A stretch of DNA of 23,017 nucleotides from a virus, in IMG/VR virus record IMGVR_UViG_3300045135_001510, positions 1-23,017 of that record. The stretch is one strand, 5' to 3'. The position numbers and the translations under genes were made by a program. Below the pieces are notes generated by a model that worked only from the letters and a program-made list of their open reading frames with translations, had not been told where the DNA came from and did no database searches. The number at the start of each line of letters is the position of its first letter. Within the stretch, counting starts at the first letter, position 1. This document shows positions 4,250 through 13,145 of this stretch, piece after piece.

Positions 4250-4315
4250 GTGTTTTAGCTTACATAGTGTTTCTCCCATAATTTTTTGTTTTGTTTTTTA
4301 TTTTTTAAAAAATGG

Positions 4316-4402
4316 TGTAACAGGTGTAACAATGTAACAAGCACTCTGTAACCATTGGTTTTACTAGGGTTTTGTGTTACACTTTGTGTTACAGTTGTTA
4401 CA
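4316..4402. repeat. Array of seven TGTAAC/GTTACA sites in inverted arrangement
   Basis: TGTAAC occurs at 4316, 4325, 4333 and 4347; its complement GTTACA occurs at 4376, 4388 and 4397. The four left and three right sites face each other across about 23 nt. This lies in the only divergent gap between the leftward block and terS, making an operator array or replication-initiator iteron cluster plausible. The surrounding 4197-4488 region holds no gene I can support. Confidence 0.7.
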
Positions 4403-4450
4403 CTTCTACTAGGACAAGATGAAGCCGCAAACATTTTTTTCCGTTTTGAA

Positions 4451-9355: not shown

Positions 9356-9384
9356 ATTATGGGAAAATATAAGATAAATGTCAA
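9356..9384 (-). promoter_or_regulatory. Near-consensus sigma70 promoter for leftward block
   Basis: On the minus strand, TTGACA (9379-9384), a 17-nt spacer and CATAAT (9356-9361). It lies about 30 nt upstream of the GP88-like start and, by tight gene overlap, would drive everything down to 5043. The -35 overlaps the first codons of the divergent VRR-NUC gene (ATG at 9378), so the two transcription units may interfere. Confidence 0.75.
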
Positions 9385-9821
9385 GAGAAAAAAACTTTTT
9401 TAAACAGATAAAAATGAATTTGAAAAAATCTCATTTCATTCAAAAGATTGAGAATAAATACAATTCTGGTTTTCCAGATTTAATTATTATAAATGAAATG
9501 TTGCCATTGTTTATAGAATTAAAAGCACCCATAAAAGGAAATAAGATTAAATTAGAAAAATCCCAAATTTCAACACATATTAGGATATATAAGAATAATT
9601 ATGTGTCTTTTATCTTGGTTCGAGACCCTTCGACCTCCAATGCATTTTTATTTGACGGATATCTTGTTGCGAATGCCATTGTGCTTGGTCAAGACCAACC
9701 AAGTTTCTTGGTTCATGGTTCAATTGCCGAATGTCTGCAAGCTTGCAATAATGAGGCACGACGAAAAGGGATGCTTGCGAGCTTTTCGTCGTCATTGCTT
9801 CCCCCGTCTTGCGACCCTTAA
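9378..9821 (+). CDS. VRR-NUC / PD-(D/E)XK nuclease with repeat-derived tail
   Basis: A 147-aa protein. Residues 30-50 read SGFPDLIIINEMLPLFIELKA: the G.PD...ExK core of VRR-NUC/PD-(D/E)XK nucleases, with Asp34, Glu47 and Lys49. A downstream strand, SFILVRDPSTSNAFLF, completes the small fold. VRR-NUC domains cut branched or replication-fork DNA and are common in phages; the exact substrate is unknown. Residues from about 119 onward look unlike the rest, and 127-138 are encoded by a perfect 11-bp hairpin, so the natural end has probably been replaced by an inserted palindromic element. There is no good Shine-Dalgarno before the ATG; an ATG at 9411 is an alternative. It is the only rightward gene in this mosaic part. 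Confidence 0.75.
   Translation: MSREKNFFKQIKMNLKKSHFIQKIENKYNSGFPDLIIINEMLPLFIELKAPIKGNKIKLEKSQISTHIRIYKNNYVSFILVRDPSTSNAFLFDGYLVANAIVLGQDQPSFLVHGSIAECLQACNNEARRKGMLASFSSSLLPPSCDP
9758..9792. repeat. 11-bp hairpin related to the repeat family, inside VRR-NUC 3-prime end
   Basis: ACGACGAAAAG (9758-9768) pairs perfectly with CTTTTCGTCGT (9782-9792) around a 13-nt loop containing GCTTGC. The apex and the following CTTTT resemble the three larger repeats, but the arms differ in sequence, so it is a related rather than identical element. Confidence 0.6.
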
Positions 9822-9914
9822 AAATTTTCGGGAAAACAAAAGGAAACGAAGTGGTCGCTTGCGATCCTTTTGTTTTAAGTATCTGCGAGCTTGATTGGAA
9901 GCCTCGGGACACGG
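9811..9914. repeat. Structured hairpin repeat, copy A
   Basis: It begins GCGACCCTTAAAAATTTTCG, then a 12-bp perfect stem AAAACAAAAGGA (9833-9844) / TCCTTTTGTTTT (9865-9876) with a 20-nt loop carrying GGTCGCTTGCGA (possible apical stem with CTTG tetraloop). A 22-nt segment after TTTTAAG can form a second small stem, followed by CCTCGGGACACGG (9902-9914). Copies B (10396) and C (11466) match it closely. It occupies the gap between the VRR-NUC stop and the terminator at 9917. Confidence 0.85.
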
Positions 9915-9916
9915 AC

Positions 9917-9941
9917 AAAAAAAGGGAGGCTTTCGCCCCCC
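9917..9941 (-). terminator. Intrinsic terminator after the 122-aa gene
   Basis: On the minus strand, GGGGGGC pairs with GCCTCCC (one G-U) around a GAAA tetraloop, followed by seven T. It lies 4 nt past the stop at 9946, ending leftward transcription of that single-gene cassette. Confidence 0.85.
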
Positions 9942-9945
9942 GATG

Positions 9946-10314
9946 TTAGATAATTCTATGACGGAAATCATAATCTATAAAGGTTGTATTTTTGGAATGT
10001 TTCATTTGTTCTTGTAGATGATGGACGACCGAGAAAGCCATATCCATTCCACACCCATTGACCACCAAACCCGTATAAGTTTTGTTTGGTCGATAGTCTA
10101 AATAATCCGAGATTAAATTATCAAGGAATAAAGGTTTATTGTCTCGGTTATCAATAATAAAAAAGCTTATATGTCTAGTCATACCACTTTGGGAAACGTG
10201 GCGAATAATACAAAATATTTCTTGATGACTATTTAATAACTCATCAAGCCTAGCTTCTGCATAAATCTTATTATCAAGCTTTCTTTGCTTCTTGGTCATT
10301 GTTTCTTGTAACAT
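9946..10314 (-). CDS. Conserved phage hypothetical protein (122 aa)
   Basis: A 122-aa protein with IIRHVSQSGMTRHISFFI and YTGLVVNGCGMDMAFSVV followed by HHLQEQ. The pairing of RHVS.SGM.R.I and GCGMDM.F..V..L is a signature I associate with a widespread phage protein family of unknown function. The ATG at 10314 has AGGAGGAC about 7 nt upstream. It is a free-standing transcription unit, with its own promoter (10343-10370) and terminator (9917-9941), bordered by hairpin repeats A and B. This moron-like design suggests a mobile accessory gene. Confidence 0.75.
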   Translation of the reverse strand: MLQETMTKKQRKLDNKIYAEARLDELLNSHQEIFCIIRHVSQSGMTRHISFFIIDNRDNKPLFLDNLISDYLDYRPNKTYTGLVVNGCGMDMAFSVVHHLQEQMKHSKNTTFIDYDFRHRII

Positions 10315-10342
10315 TGTTAGTCCTCCTTTTATTGTTAATTTT

Positions 10343-10370
10343 ATTGTATAGGAATTACTGGGATAGTCAA
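10343..10370 (-). promoter_or_regulatory. Sigma70-type promoter for the 122-aa gene
   Basis: On the minus strand, TTGACT (10365-10370), a 16-nt spacer and TACAAT (10343-10348). The predicted start near 10336 leaves a leader of about 20 nt containing AGGAGG. The -35 overlaps CAAGCTTGCAAT, a sequence also found at 9739-9748 near repeat A. Confidence 0.7.
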
Positions 10371-10395
10371 GCTTGCAATCCTAGTATTATTTGAC

Positions 10396-10477
10396 AAAAC
10401 AAAAGGAAATGAAATGGTCGCTTGCGATCCTTTTGTTTTAAGGTTTTGCGACCCCGAAGGCGAACCTCGGGACACGG
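10396..10477. repeat. Structured hairpin repeat, copy B
   Basis: The stem AAAACAAAAGGA (10396-10407) / TCCTTTTGTTTT (10428-10439) is identical to copy A. The 20-nt loop differs from copy A at only two positions. Then AAG, a 22-nt variable segment of the same length as in A that can pair as CCCGA/TCGGG, and CCTCGGGACACGG (10465-10477). It sits between the promoter of the 122-aa gene and the terminator of the next cassette. Confidence 0.85.
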
Positions 10478-10479
10478 AT

Positions 10480-10507
10480 AAAAAAAAGGGAAAGCCGAAG
10501 CTCTCCC
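10480..10507 (-). terminator. Intrinsic terminator after the 50-aa gene
   Basis: On the minus strand, GGGAGAGC and GCTTTCCC form an 8-bp stem (one G-U) closed by a TTCG tetraloop and followed by eight T. It lies 20 nt past the stop of the last gene of the 11300-to-10528 cassette. Confidence 0.9.
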
Positions 10508-10527
10508 CTTTTCCCAAGGAAACTTGA

Positions 10528-10680
10528 TTATTTTTCATAGTTGGGATCATTAGGCATTCTGCCTTTATAGTCACACTCCCAAAACGGATCATGATGCTCT
10601 TTCTTAAGTTCTGCAATGTGATCACATTTTGCATTGTAATGATACCACCACTCTTCTTCTAGTTCTCTTTGCCTATCCAT
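10528..10680 (-). CDS. Hypothetical protein (50 aa)
   Basis: The ATG at 10680 has AAAGGAAG about 6 nt upstream. The product is MDRQRELEEEWWYHYNAKCD, HIAELKKEHHDPFWECDYKG, RMPNDPNYEK: charged, with aromatic and His residues and two Cys. It overlaps the zinc-finger gene by 8 nt and is followed directly by a strong terminator, so it is the last gene of its cassette. No function recognised. Confidence 0.65.
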   Translation of the reverse strand: MDRQRELEEEWWYHYNAKCDHIAELKKEHHDPFWECDYKGRMPNDPNYEK

Positions 10681-10951
10681 TATTCTTCCTTTCTTCATTC
10701 GCTCTTTTTGTGATGTGCTTCAAAGATACTTTAGCTAAAGCTCTTGCTTTGCGATGCTCTTTTAAAATCTCTTTGAGTGGCCTGGTCGGCATTGCTCGAC
10801 CCGAGGCTATGATTGCGATCCTCATCGGGATAACTTCAGTATCATTGCATCTTGTGCAACATCTACCTTTGGAGATAGGAAAGGCATTATGCCCTTCCTT
10901 CCATCCACTTGCTTGGATATCTATTTCGCTTGTGCAAATATCACATTTCAT
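10673..10951 (-). CDS. Putative zinc-binding phage protein (92 aa)
   Basis: The N-terminal half has CDIC (3-6), GHNAFPISKGRCCTRCNDTE and VIPMRIA: a treble-clef-like arrangement, CxxC then CCxxC, followed by V.P.R. The pattern GHN.FP...GRCC..CN...VIP.R is one I know from small phage proteins of unknown role. The C-terminal half is a basic helix (LKEILKEHRKARALAKVSL). Start ATGA overlaps the upstream stop. The basic helix plus zinc site suggest nucleic-acid contact, which is inference. Confidence 0.75.
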   Translation of the reverse strand: MKCDICTSEIDIQASGWKEGHNAFPISKGRCCTRCNDTEVIPMRIAIIASGRAMPTRPLKEILKEHRKARALAKVSLKHITKRANEERKNNG

Positions 10952-11115
10952 TGTTTCGCCTCCAGTTCTCTAACTCTAGTCTCGATGCAAGCAGTCACTT
11001 CCACGAGCCTTTGTAGTTCTTTTTTTAATGTTGATGTGTAATCAAAATTATTCTGACACATGTCTCTTAATAACTTTGTAGAATCTATTACTAACTGTAC
11101 TTCTTTTTCGTCCAT
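10948..11115 (-). CDS. Small coiled-coil protein (55 aa)
   Basis: The ATG at 11115 has GGGAGG upstream and overlaps the preceding stop as TAATG. The product, MDEKEVQLVIDSTKLLRDMC then STLKKELQRLVEVTACIETR, VRELEAKQ, shows heptad-like Leu/Val spacing, so a short coiled coil is likely. The stop overlaps the next start as ATGA. Function unknown. Confidence 0.65.
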   Translation of the reverse strand: MDEKEVQLVIDSTKLLRDMCQNNFDYTSTLKKELQRLVEVTACIETRVRELEAKQ

Positions 11116-11300
11116 TAGAACCTCCCTTTACTGGTTAGAAAGCTTGCCACATCTTTTAATGTATCAAACCTTATGTAAGACAAAGGCGAACCATGTCGTC
11201 TTAATGTGTATCTATTACTGTGTTTTTCTAGTATTGCATTCAATTGCGAATCGGCTATGAATGCTAAAGTTTTAAAATTATTGTGAATAATTTTAACCAT
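11115..11300 (-). CDS. Hypothetical protein (61 aa), first gene of cassette
   Basis: The ATG at 11300 has AAGGAGG 7 nt upstream. The product includes VKIIHNNFKTLAFIADSQL, NAILEKHSNRYTLRRHGSPL and FDTLKDVASFLTSKGRF: a small alpha/beta protein. It heads the four-gene cassette 11300-10528, driven by the promoter at 11332-11360. No family recognised. Confidence 0.65.
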   Translation of the reverse strand: MVKIIHNNFKTLAFIADSQLNAILEKHSNRYTLRRHGSPLSYIRFDTLKDVASFLTSKGRF

Positions 11301-11331
11301 AGTTTTCCTCCTTGGTTGTTGTTATAAAAAT

Positions 11332-11360
11332 ATTGTATCCCAGTTTCTCCCATAAGTAAA
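11332..11360 (-). promoter_or_regulatory. Sigma70-type promoter for the four-gene cassette
   Basis: On the minus strand, TTTACT (11355-11360), a 17-nt spacer and TACAAT (11332-11337). The predicted start is about 11325, giving a 25-nt leader with AAGGAGG. The spacer contains the 13-mer GTTTCTCCCATAA (11343-11355), shared with 4269-4281. Confidence 0.6.
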
Positions 11361-11392
11361 ACACTTTATGCAAAAAACTTGGCCTGGTATTT

Positions 11393-11442
11393 ATGTCACA
11401 CACTGTGGTAATTATGTCACAAACTGTTGCAGAAATGTCACA
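11393..11442. repeat. Three ATGTCACA direct repeats with 21-bp period
   Basis: ATGTCACA occurs at 11393, 11414 and 11435, exactly 21 bp apart (two helical turns); the first two copies extend to ATGTCACAnACTGT. They lie in the 363-nt gene-free stretch 11301-11663, between the leftward cassette promoter and repeat C, a likely place for a regulator or packaging protein to bind cooperatively. Confidence 0.7.
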
Positions 11443-11465
11443 CTGCGTCCCTTAAAAAATTTCGG

Positions 11466-11530
11466 AAAACAAAAGAGAACGGAGTGAAACGAAGTGGTCG
11501 CTTGCGACTCTTTTGTTTTAAGCCTCGGGG
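11466..11530. repeat. Structured hairpin repeat, copy C
   Basis: The stem AAAACAAAAGAG (11466-11477) / CTCTTTTGTTTT (11508-11519) differs from A and B by paired changes in both arms, keeping all 12 base pairs. The loop is 30 nt because GGAGTGAAAC is added beside GAAGTG, an apparent 10-nt duplication. AAGCCTCGGGG follows directly, without the 22-nt segment of A and B; CGGGACACGG recurs at 11591. The upstream CCCTTAAAAA...TTTCGG also matches copy A. Confidence 0.8.
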
Positions 11531-11628: not shown

Positions 11629-11657
11629 TTGATAATTTCATTCAAATATATTATTGT
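11629..11657 (+). promoter_or_regulatory. Candidate late promoter for terL operon
   Basis: TTGATA (11629-11634), a 17-nt spacer and TATTGT (11652-11657). The expected start, about 7 nt downstream, coincides with the ATG at 11664, so terL may be read from a leaderless mRNA; no Shine-Dalgarno is present. Confidence 0.45.
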
Positions 11658-11663
11658 TTGGGC

Positions 11664-13145
11664 ATGAACCTAGATGTATTACCTAAAGAAGTGTTACAAG
11701 AAGTTCTGTTACTGGAAGAACAGAAGAGACGACTTGAAACCAGAGAATTAGCTCAAACTAAATTTCTTGCCTATGCTAAACATGTATATGAGGGGTTTAT
11801 AGAGGGCAGACATCATCGTATCATTGCAGAAAAGCTCGAGGACATTGCATCGGGTAACTTGAAGCGTTTGATAATCAATATGCCACCTAGACACTCGAAG
11901 TCAGAATTAGCCTCATATTTAATGCCTTCGTGGTTCTTGGGTCGTAATCCTAAATTAAAAATCATACAGGCTACCATGAACACGGAACTTGCTGTAAGAT
12001 TTGGTAGGAAAGTCCGTGATCTTATTGCCGATCCCATTTATGCAGAGATCTTTCCCAAGACGGACTTGAAACAGGATAGCCAAGCGGCAGGTCGTTGGGA
12101 GACTAGCCAAGGCGGGGAATACTTTGCAGCGGGGGTGGGTGCTGCAATGACAGGTCGAGGTGCCGATTTGTTGATCATTGACGATCCACATTCGGAACAA
12201 GATGCACTGTCCACGGTTGCTTATGATAATACATACGAGTGGTACACATCAGGACCGAGACAGAGACTACAACCGGGGGGAACCATCATCATTGTGCAAA
12301 CCAGATGGTCTAAGAAAGATCTGACGGGGCGATTAATTCAGAATATGGCGATGGACAGTATGTCGGATCAATGGGAAGTTGTAGAATTTCCAGCAATACT
12401 TCCGAACGACAAACCTTTGTGGCCTGAATTTTGGCAAGTAGAAGAACTATTAAAGGTCAAGGCTTCACTGTCCCCGGTCAAGTGGAATGCACAGTGGCAA
12501 CAAAATCCGACATCGGAAGCTGTTGCGATGATCAAAAGAGAGTGGTGGCAACCTTGGGAGCACAAGGATGTTCCTAATTTGGATTATGTAGTTCAGAGTT
12601 ATGATACGGCATATTCTAAAAAAGAGACTGCCGACTATAGTGCTATTACAACATGGGGTGTGTTTGAACCGAAACCAAATGGTGAACAACATTTGATAAT
12701 GTTGGATGCGAAGAAGGGTAGATGGAGTTTTCCAGAGTTAAAGCAGATAGCGATAGAAGAAAATGAATACTGGGAACCAGACTTGATGTTGATTGAAGCA
12801 AAAGCATCTGGTCAACCTTTGGCAGATGAACTACGACTATTGAACTTGCCTGTTACAACATTTAGCCCGGGTAGACGAAAAGGTGGTGGTGGTGTTGATA
12901 AAACTATGAGGATGCATATAGTGTCGCCTATTTTCGAATCGGGCAAAGTATGGTATCCTGAAGGGGAAAAATTTGCCGATGATGTGATAGAAGAGGTTGC
13001 ATCTTTTCCTAATGGCGAGCATGATGACTATTGTGATAGTATGACAATGGCAGTCATGCGATTTAGGCAAGGTGGGTTTATAGATTTGAAGGGTGAAGAA
13101 ATACCAGAAGATTGGTATCCTCGTAGAGCAAGAGAGTATTATTGA
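11664..13145 (+). CDS. terL: Terminase large subunit
   Basis: A 493-aa packaging motor. The ATPase domain has an atypical Walker A, MPPRHSKS (73-80), and Walker B LLIIDDP (169-175). The C-terminal RNase H-like nuclease has YDTAY (Asp314), LIEAKASG (Glu378) and GEHDDYCDS (450-459) as acidic ligands. It cuts the concatemer and pumps DNA into the prohead through the portal. The frame is open back to 11427, but that part runs through hairpin repeat C and encodes no recognisable protein; ATG 11664 (MNLDVLPKEV) fits the family start, with ATG 11625 as alternative. Neither has a Shine-Dalgarno. The downstream 36-aa gene overlaps as TGATG. It is the first gene of the late operon. Confidence 0.95.
   Translation: MNLDVLPKEVLQEVLLLEEQKRRLETRELAQTKFLAYAKHVYEGFIEGRHHRIIAEKLEDIASGNLKRLIINMPPRHSKSELASYLMPSWFLGRNPKLKIIQATMNTELAVRFGRKVRDLIADPIYAEIFPKTDLKQDSQAAGRWETSQGGEYFAAGVGAAMTGRGADLLIIDDPHSEQDALSTVAYDNTYEWYTSGPRQRLQPGGTIIIVQTRWSKKDLTGRLIQNMAMDSMSDQWEVVEFPAILPNDKPLWPEFWQVEELLKVKASLSPVKWNAQWQQNPTSEAVAMIKREWWQPWEHKDVPNLDYVVQSYDTAYSKKETADYSAITTWGVFEPKPNGEQHLIMLDAKKGRWSFPELKQIAIEENEYWEPDLMLIEAKASGQPLADELRLLNLPVTTFSPGRRKGGGGVDKTMRMHIVSPIFESGKVWYPEGEKFADDVIEEVASFPNGEHDDYCDSMTMAVMRFRQGGFIDLKGEEIPEDWYPRRAREYY

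Follow-up and report, generated by a model that had tools for sequence, protein, structure and literature searches.

A constant-loop hairpin family in the small-gene array between a nuclease gene and terL of HTVC023P/HTVC027P-related phages

The array and its hairpins

The gain and loss of many small genes by phages is mostly inferred from mosaicism. Here we describe a locus in the IMG/VR virus record IMGVR_UViG_3300045135_001510, all 23,017 bases of which were analysed and are called the window below, where a family of hairpins lies between a + strand nuclease gene and the + strand gene for the terminase large subunit, terL. Small minus-strand genes, here called cassettes, stand in a row of varying content between these two borders. 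No domain is recognised in them (a Pfam search with their proteins gave no match above cut-off), and hairpins occupy most of the gaps in the row. The genes and hairpins of the window are the following:

9378..9821 (+): Hjc/VRR-Nuc-like nuclease of the PD-(D/E)XK type, bordering the array on the left
9758..9792 (+): hairpin D, ACGACGAAAAG / GGATGCTTGCGAG / CTTTTCGTCGT, an 11-bp perfect stem, variant-loop relative of hairpins A-C
9833..9876 (+): hairpin A, AAAACAAAAGGA / AACGAAGTGGTCGCTTGCGA / TCCTTTTGTTTT, scoring 66 bits to the family covariance model, flanked by the + strand nuclease gene and the convergent minus-strand gene 9946-10314
9946..10314 (-): cassette gene between hairpins A and B
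10396..10439 (+): hairpin B, stem as in A, loop AATGAAATGGTCGCTTGCGA, with minus-strand genes on either side
10528..10680 (-): cassette gene, 50 amino acids
10673..10951 (-): cassette gene, 92 amino acids
11115..11300 (-): cassette gene, 61 amino acids
11466..11519 (+): hairpin C, AAAACAAAAGAG stem, 10-nt insertion in the loop, flanked by the divergent minus-strand gene 11115-11300 and terL
11664..13145 (+): terL, for the terminase large subunit, bordering the array on the right

The initial annotation had described A, B and C as copies in a common orientation, each with a 12-bp perfect stem and a loop containing GGTCGCTTGCGA, and had noted a paired change in C from AAGGA/TCCTT to AAGAG/CTCTT that keeps the pairing, as well as the 10-nt insertion in the loop of C. 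All of this is confirmed. Perfect stems of at least 12 bp (loop of at most 55 nt) number three in the window and none in 12 shuffles, GGTCGCTTGCGA has three exact occurrences and six matches at up to two mismatches against 0.5 expected, and the folding energies of the three hairpins range from -12 to -19 kcal/mol. A second stem, which had been proposed for the 22-nt spacer shared by A and B, finds no support: folds including the spacer gave z = -0.9 for A and -1.7 for B, and across relatives this stretch is a TGCRA box and the lead-in to a minus-strand terminator. Hairpin D had been overlooked, as had the setting of terminators and promoters. It lies within the C-terminal extension of gene 9378-9821, which is encoded by the hairpin and its flank (9758-9821); most homologues of the nuclease stop earlier. 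An Rfam scan of the window yielded no match above gathering score.

Loop, stems and distribution of the family

What is constant in these hairpins, and what is free to vary? A loop-only pattern, AAYGRARTGGTCGC(N0-3)TGCGA, scanned across 2.9 million viral contigs, is present in 52, of which 50 belong to one HTVC023P/HTVC027P-related phage clade. Perfectly complementary arms of at least 8 bp flank 84 of the 89 loop matches in these contigs and the window, in 51 distinct elements, and the covariance model recovered further copies and weaker variants. The loop is constant and the stem sequences are diverse (for example AAAACAAAAGGA, GTGTGCAAAGAA, AATCGCAAAGGA, TTGCAGAGAT and AGGAGCAGAAGC). Among 21 representatives, both-sided changes are found at all 12 stem pairs (71 cells, related sequences being included in the counts) with no one-sided wobble. 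Counted over the inner ten stem pairs of the elements, there are 274 Watson-Crick pairs, one GT and five mismatches. In the covariation test, as proposed with the initial annotation, no shuffle matches the observed score and shifting the partners abolishes the covariation. We do not claim an inner helix within the loop, since it has no both-sided changes among the 21 representatives.

Between the window and distant core-loop relatives the loop is 90-100% identical; because fourfold-degenerate sites of TerL are only 41-49% identical in the same comparison, this degree of loop conservation exceeds what neutrality predicts, owing to selection or to repeated exchange. Loop identity beyond these sites, together with the covarying stems, supports the earlier idea of a selected structured element. 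As for the alternatives offered with that idea, a protein-binding or RNA role of the loop is possible, whereas a mobile palindrome finds no support, exact-loop copies being limited to a single interval in the genomes of one phage clade and bacteria and archaea yielding one other hairpin (below). A conserved TGCRAnYC box lies about 22 nt ahead of the left arm in most elements; where the box is present, the distance is mostly 20-26 nt (mode 22). The listed loop types have TGCRA at or near their end, often followed by a further such box. The upstream boxes in the window are:

9810..9817 (+): box of hairpin A, TGCGACCC, about 23 nt ahead of the left arm
10374..10381 (+): box of hairpin B, TGCAATCC
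11444..11451 (+): box of hairpin C, TGCGTCCC

Among cultured phages, the TerL of the window is nearest to those of Pelagibacter phage HTVC027P (59%), DSL-LC04 and HTVC023P. Every contig that carries a hairpin and recognisable genes belongs to one phage clade, and there the hairpins, which all point the same way as terL, are limited to the stretch enclosed by the nuclease gene and terL; records as long as 78 kb have one cluster of copies, and the suggested hunt for copies at non-homologous positions in phages led to this one interval and clade. Perfect hairpins of at least 10 bp number 2.93 per kb inside the array and 0.147 outside it, a 20-fold difference. Members of the hairpin family are absent from the vicinity of terL in the cultured relatives HTVC023P, HTVC027P, DSL-LC04 and 023Pt_psg01. 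A selection made by TerL only gave 80 loci, 44 of them with both array borders. Seven of the 44 (L310-L316) have 150-213 nt between the nuclease gene and terL and neither cassettes nor hairpins there, and 30 of the other 37 have TGCRA hairpins, 17 of these with the core loop. Some TerL-chosen loci, including ones without a recognised left border, bear unrelated palindromes. Because empty intervals lack hairpins and others hold unrelated palindromes, the hairpins accompany the cassettes and not packaging, terL expression or the nuclease gene. They are a real, clade-wide and functionally constrained punctuation of the cassette array.

The unrelated palindromes are of several kinds. A second conserved hairpin family, TGACCGTTGGGGTGGG ... 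CGGGTGGAGT ... CAACGGTCA, punctuates the same array in the sister phages L278, L286, L289, L292, L293, L305, L307 and L309, and a third repeat, the palindrome TTAACATGTTAA, is present there in several copies in L318-L321, L336 and L346-L352. Long-loop hairpins of other sequence (stems of 12-20 bp, loops of 20-50 nt) in the array of L240, L141 and L053 hint that any strong palindrome may be tolerated or recruited in it.

Outside phages, a GTDB scan that covered 84,980 species of bacteria and archaea found two exact loop matches, where we calculate a chance expectation of about 0.5 for a 20-mer. One, in a Sphingorhabdus metagenome-assembled genome (MAG), is apparently coding. The other is a hairpin, in which the exact 20-nt loop sits on a long, unrelated AT-rich stem; it is the single copy in a Prevotellaceae MAG, near the end of contig JAIRZR010000477.1 (L020, L274), and may be chance or a distant relative. 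A blastn search of INPHARED with consensus hairpins gave weak matches only, in Nocardia, Mycobacterium and fecal phage records, and the covariance model found no match in three of these records.

Proposed composite modules and cassette turnover

The hairpins are embedded in predicted transcription signals. Elements between two minus-strand genes have a minus-strand terminator on their right in 26 of 27 cases (5% in shuffles) and a minus-strand sigma70-like promoter on their left in 18 of 27 (10% in shuffles). At the + strand foot of the hairpin, 64 of 94 elements have a T-run of at least four (2% expected), as do 27 of 94 on the minus strand. In the window these signals are:

9924..9941 (-): intrinsic terminator of the minus strand that follows gene 9946-10314 and faces hairpin A
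10343..10370 (-): sigma70-like promoter TTGACT-16-TACAAT of gene 9946-10314, directly left of hairpin B
10489..10508 (-): intrinsic terminator of the minus strand that follows gene 10528-10680 and faces hairpin B
11629..11657 (+): terL promoter-like site TTGATA-17-TATTGT, found too in array-less relatives

We propose that the hairpins are probably the repeated part of composite modules that punctuate an exchangeable small-gene array running from the nuclease gene to terL. These modules are most likely analogous to the promoter-early stem-loops (PeSLs) of T4: opposed terminators and a promoter that would insulate the cassettes and supply repeats for their gain and loss. An inter-cassette module would consist of a minus-strand promoter to the left of the hairpin and a minus-strand terminator to its right. 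On the + strand each hairpin, with its perfect stem and T-tract, would act as an intrinsic terminator of moderate strength opposing the minus-strand terminator; the gap would therefore hold opposed terminators, which may shield the cassette genes against antisense read-through. Recombination between two near-identical modules would use them as seams, removing or inserting a promoter-gene-terminator cassette, and the complementarity of the arms may be kept during sequence drift by selection or by template-switch repair between them.

The apparent outcome of cassette removal and insertion at the modules is shown by genome comparison, close relatives differing by whole genes with the breakpoint at a hairpin or promoter-hairpin module in five comparisons. 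For example, the hairpin-gene-hairpin arrangement of L004 corresponds in L009 to a single hairpin, and the two alignment blocks overlap in L009 across that hairpin plus 2-4 nt; L006 and L005 differ by presence or absence of the same gene. The window differs from L014 by a 60-amino-acid gene, and its hairpin B unites the left flank of one L014 hairpin with the right flank of the next. Likewise, presence or absence of a cassette in L120/L208 and L259/L040 has its breakpoint at the promoter-hairpin module, and L295 and L296 switch within 37 nt spanning the right half of a hairpin. At L018:1671 a hairpin has mismatched arms, the left one from the first and the right one from the second hairpin of a tandem, meeting in the loop; this matches a crossover in the loop of a tandem pair like that of L258.

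Several points weigh against this proposal. Termination is read from sequence, the T-tracts of some elements being short or their stems poor in GC, and a terminator needs neither a conserved loop nor a TGCRA box 22 nt upstream. No + strand promoter that would call for so many stops emerged within the array. The hairpins with 10 nt make up 9-28% of the gap sequence, and their coincidence with breakpoints is suggestive, not conclusive, because cassette boundaries must fall in gaps anyway; one polymorphism, f14, is counted in two contig pairs.

Could the hairpins instead be sites recognised by their structure, a cruciform or single-stranded DNA hairpin that a nuclease, perhaps the Hjc/VRR-Nuc-like enzyme of the neighbouring gene, would cut, with cassettes exchanged in the manner of integron attC sites? 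Each unit is a gene with a hairpin at its 3' side in uniform orientation, free stem sequence with strict Watson-Crick pairing is expected if both strands must fold, and the cassette junctions and loop-crossover chimera fit as well. The product of the adjacent gene is predicted to fold like a Holliday resolvase, and VRR-Nuc proteins of prokaryotes cut four-way junctions (PMC4103454). We nevertheless consider this explanation unlikely, given that neither a tyrosine or serine recombinase nor a Y1 transposase was found in relatives of 60-78 kb, the attC core motif is absent, the nuclease gene persists where the array is empty, and ordinary homologous recombination can explain the junctions. The nuclease itself has weak matches (sub-threshold VRR_NUC; a PHROG Holliday junction resolvase at 1e-3), keeps an E...D...ExK...Q pattern in 14 homologues, and has a predicted fold (predicted local distance difference test score 75) whose best matches are Hjc and RecU resolvases at modest E-values. 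The gene is present also in loci without hairpins, and its connection with the hairpins is tentative. It is doubtful that the phages encode a cassette-exchange system whose junctions are marked by structure and not by stem sequence, a constant-loop hairpin extruded from DNA being processed by the linked Holliday-resolvase-like nuclease; small genes of marine phages would in that case be captured and lost as modular units.

A + strand RNA signal, such as nut/put-like antitermination or a site bound by an RNA-binding protein of phage or host, would have the TGCRAnYC box and loop recognised and the stem merely present them. Loop conservation beyond neutral expectation, the narrow distance of the upstream box and the + strand polarity of the T-tract agree with such a role; we think it improbable, however, as most copies lie antisense to the flanking genes in non-coding gaps, the stem is nearly without wobble pairs, Rfam gives no match, and the same positions also hold other loop sequences. 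The hairpins are probably not freely mobile. A palindromic element resembling repetitive extragenic palindromes (REPs) or miniature inverted-repeat transposable elements and spreading among phages would account for multiple copies in one orientation and for the tandem copies in L013 and L241, yet stems differ among copies within one genome, unlike those of copied elements, the family is restricted to one interval of one clade, and its bacterial occurrence amounts to one unexplained hairpin, all of which makes this origin very unlikely. Nor are the hairpins probably cos or pac sites: although clustered directional repeats next to terL would suit a packaging or replication origin signal, every copy is missing from relatives with an empty nuclease-terL interval and unrelated palindromes occupy that place in others, and we give this explanation hardly any credence.

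Two further repeat clusters were seen in the window. Immediately before hairpin C, at 11390-11446, ATGTCACA recurs three times as a direct repeat with a spacing of about 25 nt, a possible operator or terminase-binding site; relatives have TGTGACATTT repeats or hairpins at this position (L008:9774-9800). A cluster of direct and inverted TGTAACA/TGTTACA repeats at 4315-4410, directly upstream of the small terminase gene, is a candidate packaging or regulatory site.

The array is a compact, repeatedly sampled marine-phage locus whose cassettes are delimited by a recognisable signature, which makes their turnover readable in metagenomes and open to laboratory tests. A constant loop on a free stem that nearly lacks wobble pairs is an unusual design, suggestive of a loop-binding factor or a DNA-level process.

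Comparison with known systems

The array shares features with several known systems. Like the moron genes of tailed phages, its cassettes are extra small genes with their own promoter and terminator between conserved genes; unlike morons, they form an array and are kept apart by hairpins of a dedicated family. The hairpins have the stable stem and T-tract of + strand intrinsic terminators, from which they differ in a conserved 20-nt loop, a conserved upstream box and an antisense position relative to most flanking genes.

With integron attC sites the array has in common a gene followed by a 3' structured site, variable stem sequence with kept pairing, and a same-orientation arrangement. It differs in its conserved loop instead of outer boxes and in cassettes that mostly have their own promoter and terminator. 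The integron tyrosine integrase PF00589 was found in none of nine records including the 60-78 kb relatives, where a host enzyme is possible, and inspection of the arms (e.g. AATCGCAAAGGA, TGCAGAGGT) revealed no RYYYAAC or GTTRRRY boxes at the stem base; with integrase and core boxes both absent, we reject integron identity. A Y1-mobilised REP repeat is likewise rejected, as no Y1 (RAYT/IS200-type) transposase, PF01797, was found in a search that covered the 60-78 kb relatives. Searches for serine resolvase and ERF annealase were negative.

Finally, PeSL cassettes were reportedly found in T4-type phages by Arbiol et al. in 2010 and Comeau et al. in 2014. The array likewise has composites of promoter and stem-loop or terminator between genes, in many copies at high density in a plastic region of varying gene content, and indel junctions at the modules, which in this case are comparative evidence only, indicate that recombination between copies shuffles small genes. 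As cited in PMC4503421, the promoter-terminator cassettes of the PeSL system mediate modular gene shuffling. Compared with them, the array belongs to a different phage family and adds an extra hairpin of polarity opposite to the genes, with an invariant loop and free stem, a fixed upstream TGCRA box, a separate minus-strand terminator, and unrelated palindrome families in sister phages. Because its TerL is nearest to those of the pelagiphages HTVC027P and HTVC023P and not of a T4-like myovirus with a T4-type early promoter, we regard the array as analogous to the PeSL system and not as a member of it. We found no paper on intergenic stem-loops of pelagiphages, and this PeSL-like arrangement, which seems not to have been described before in HTVC023P/HTVC027P-related phages, appears to resemble the T4-type system.

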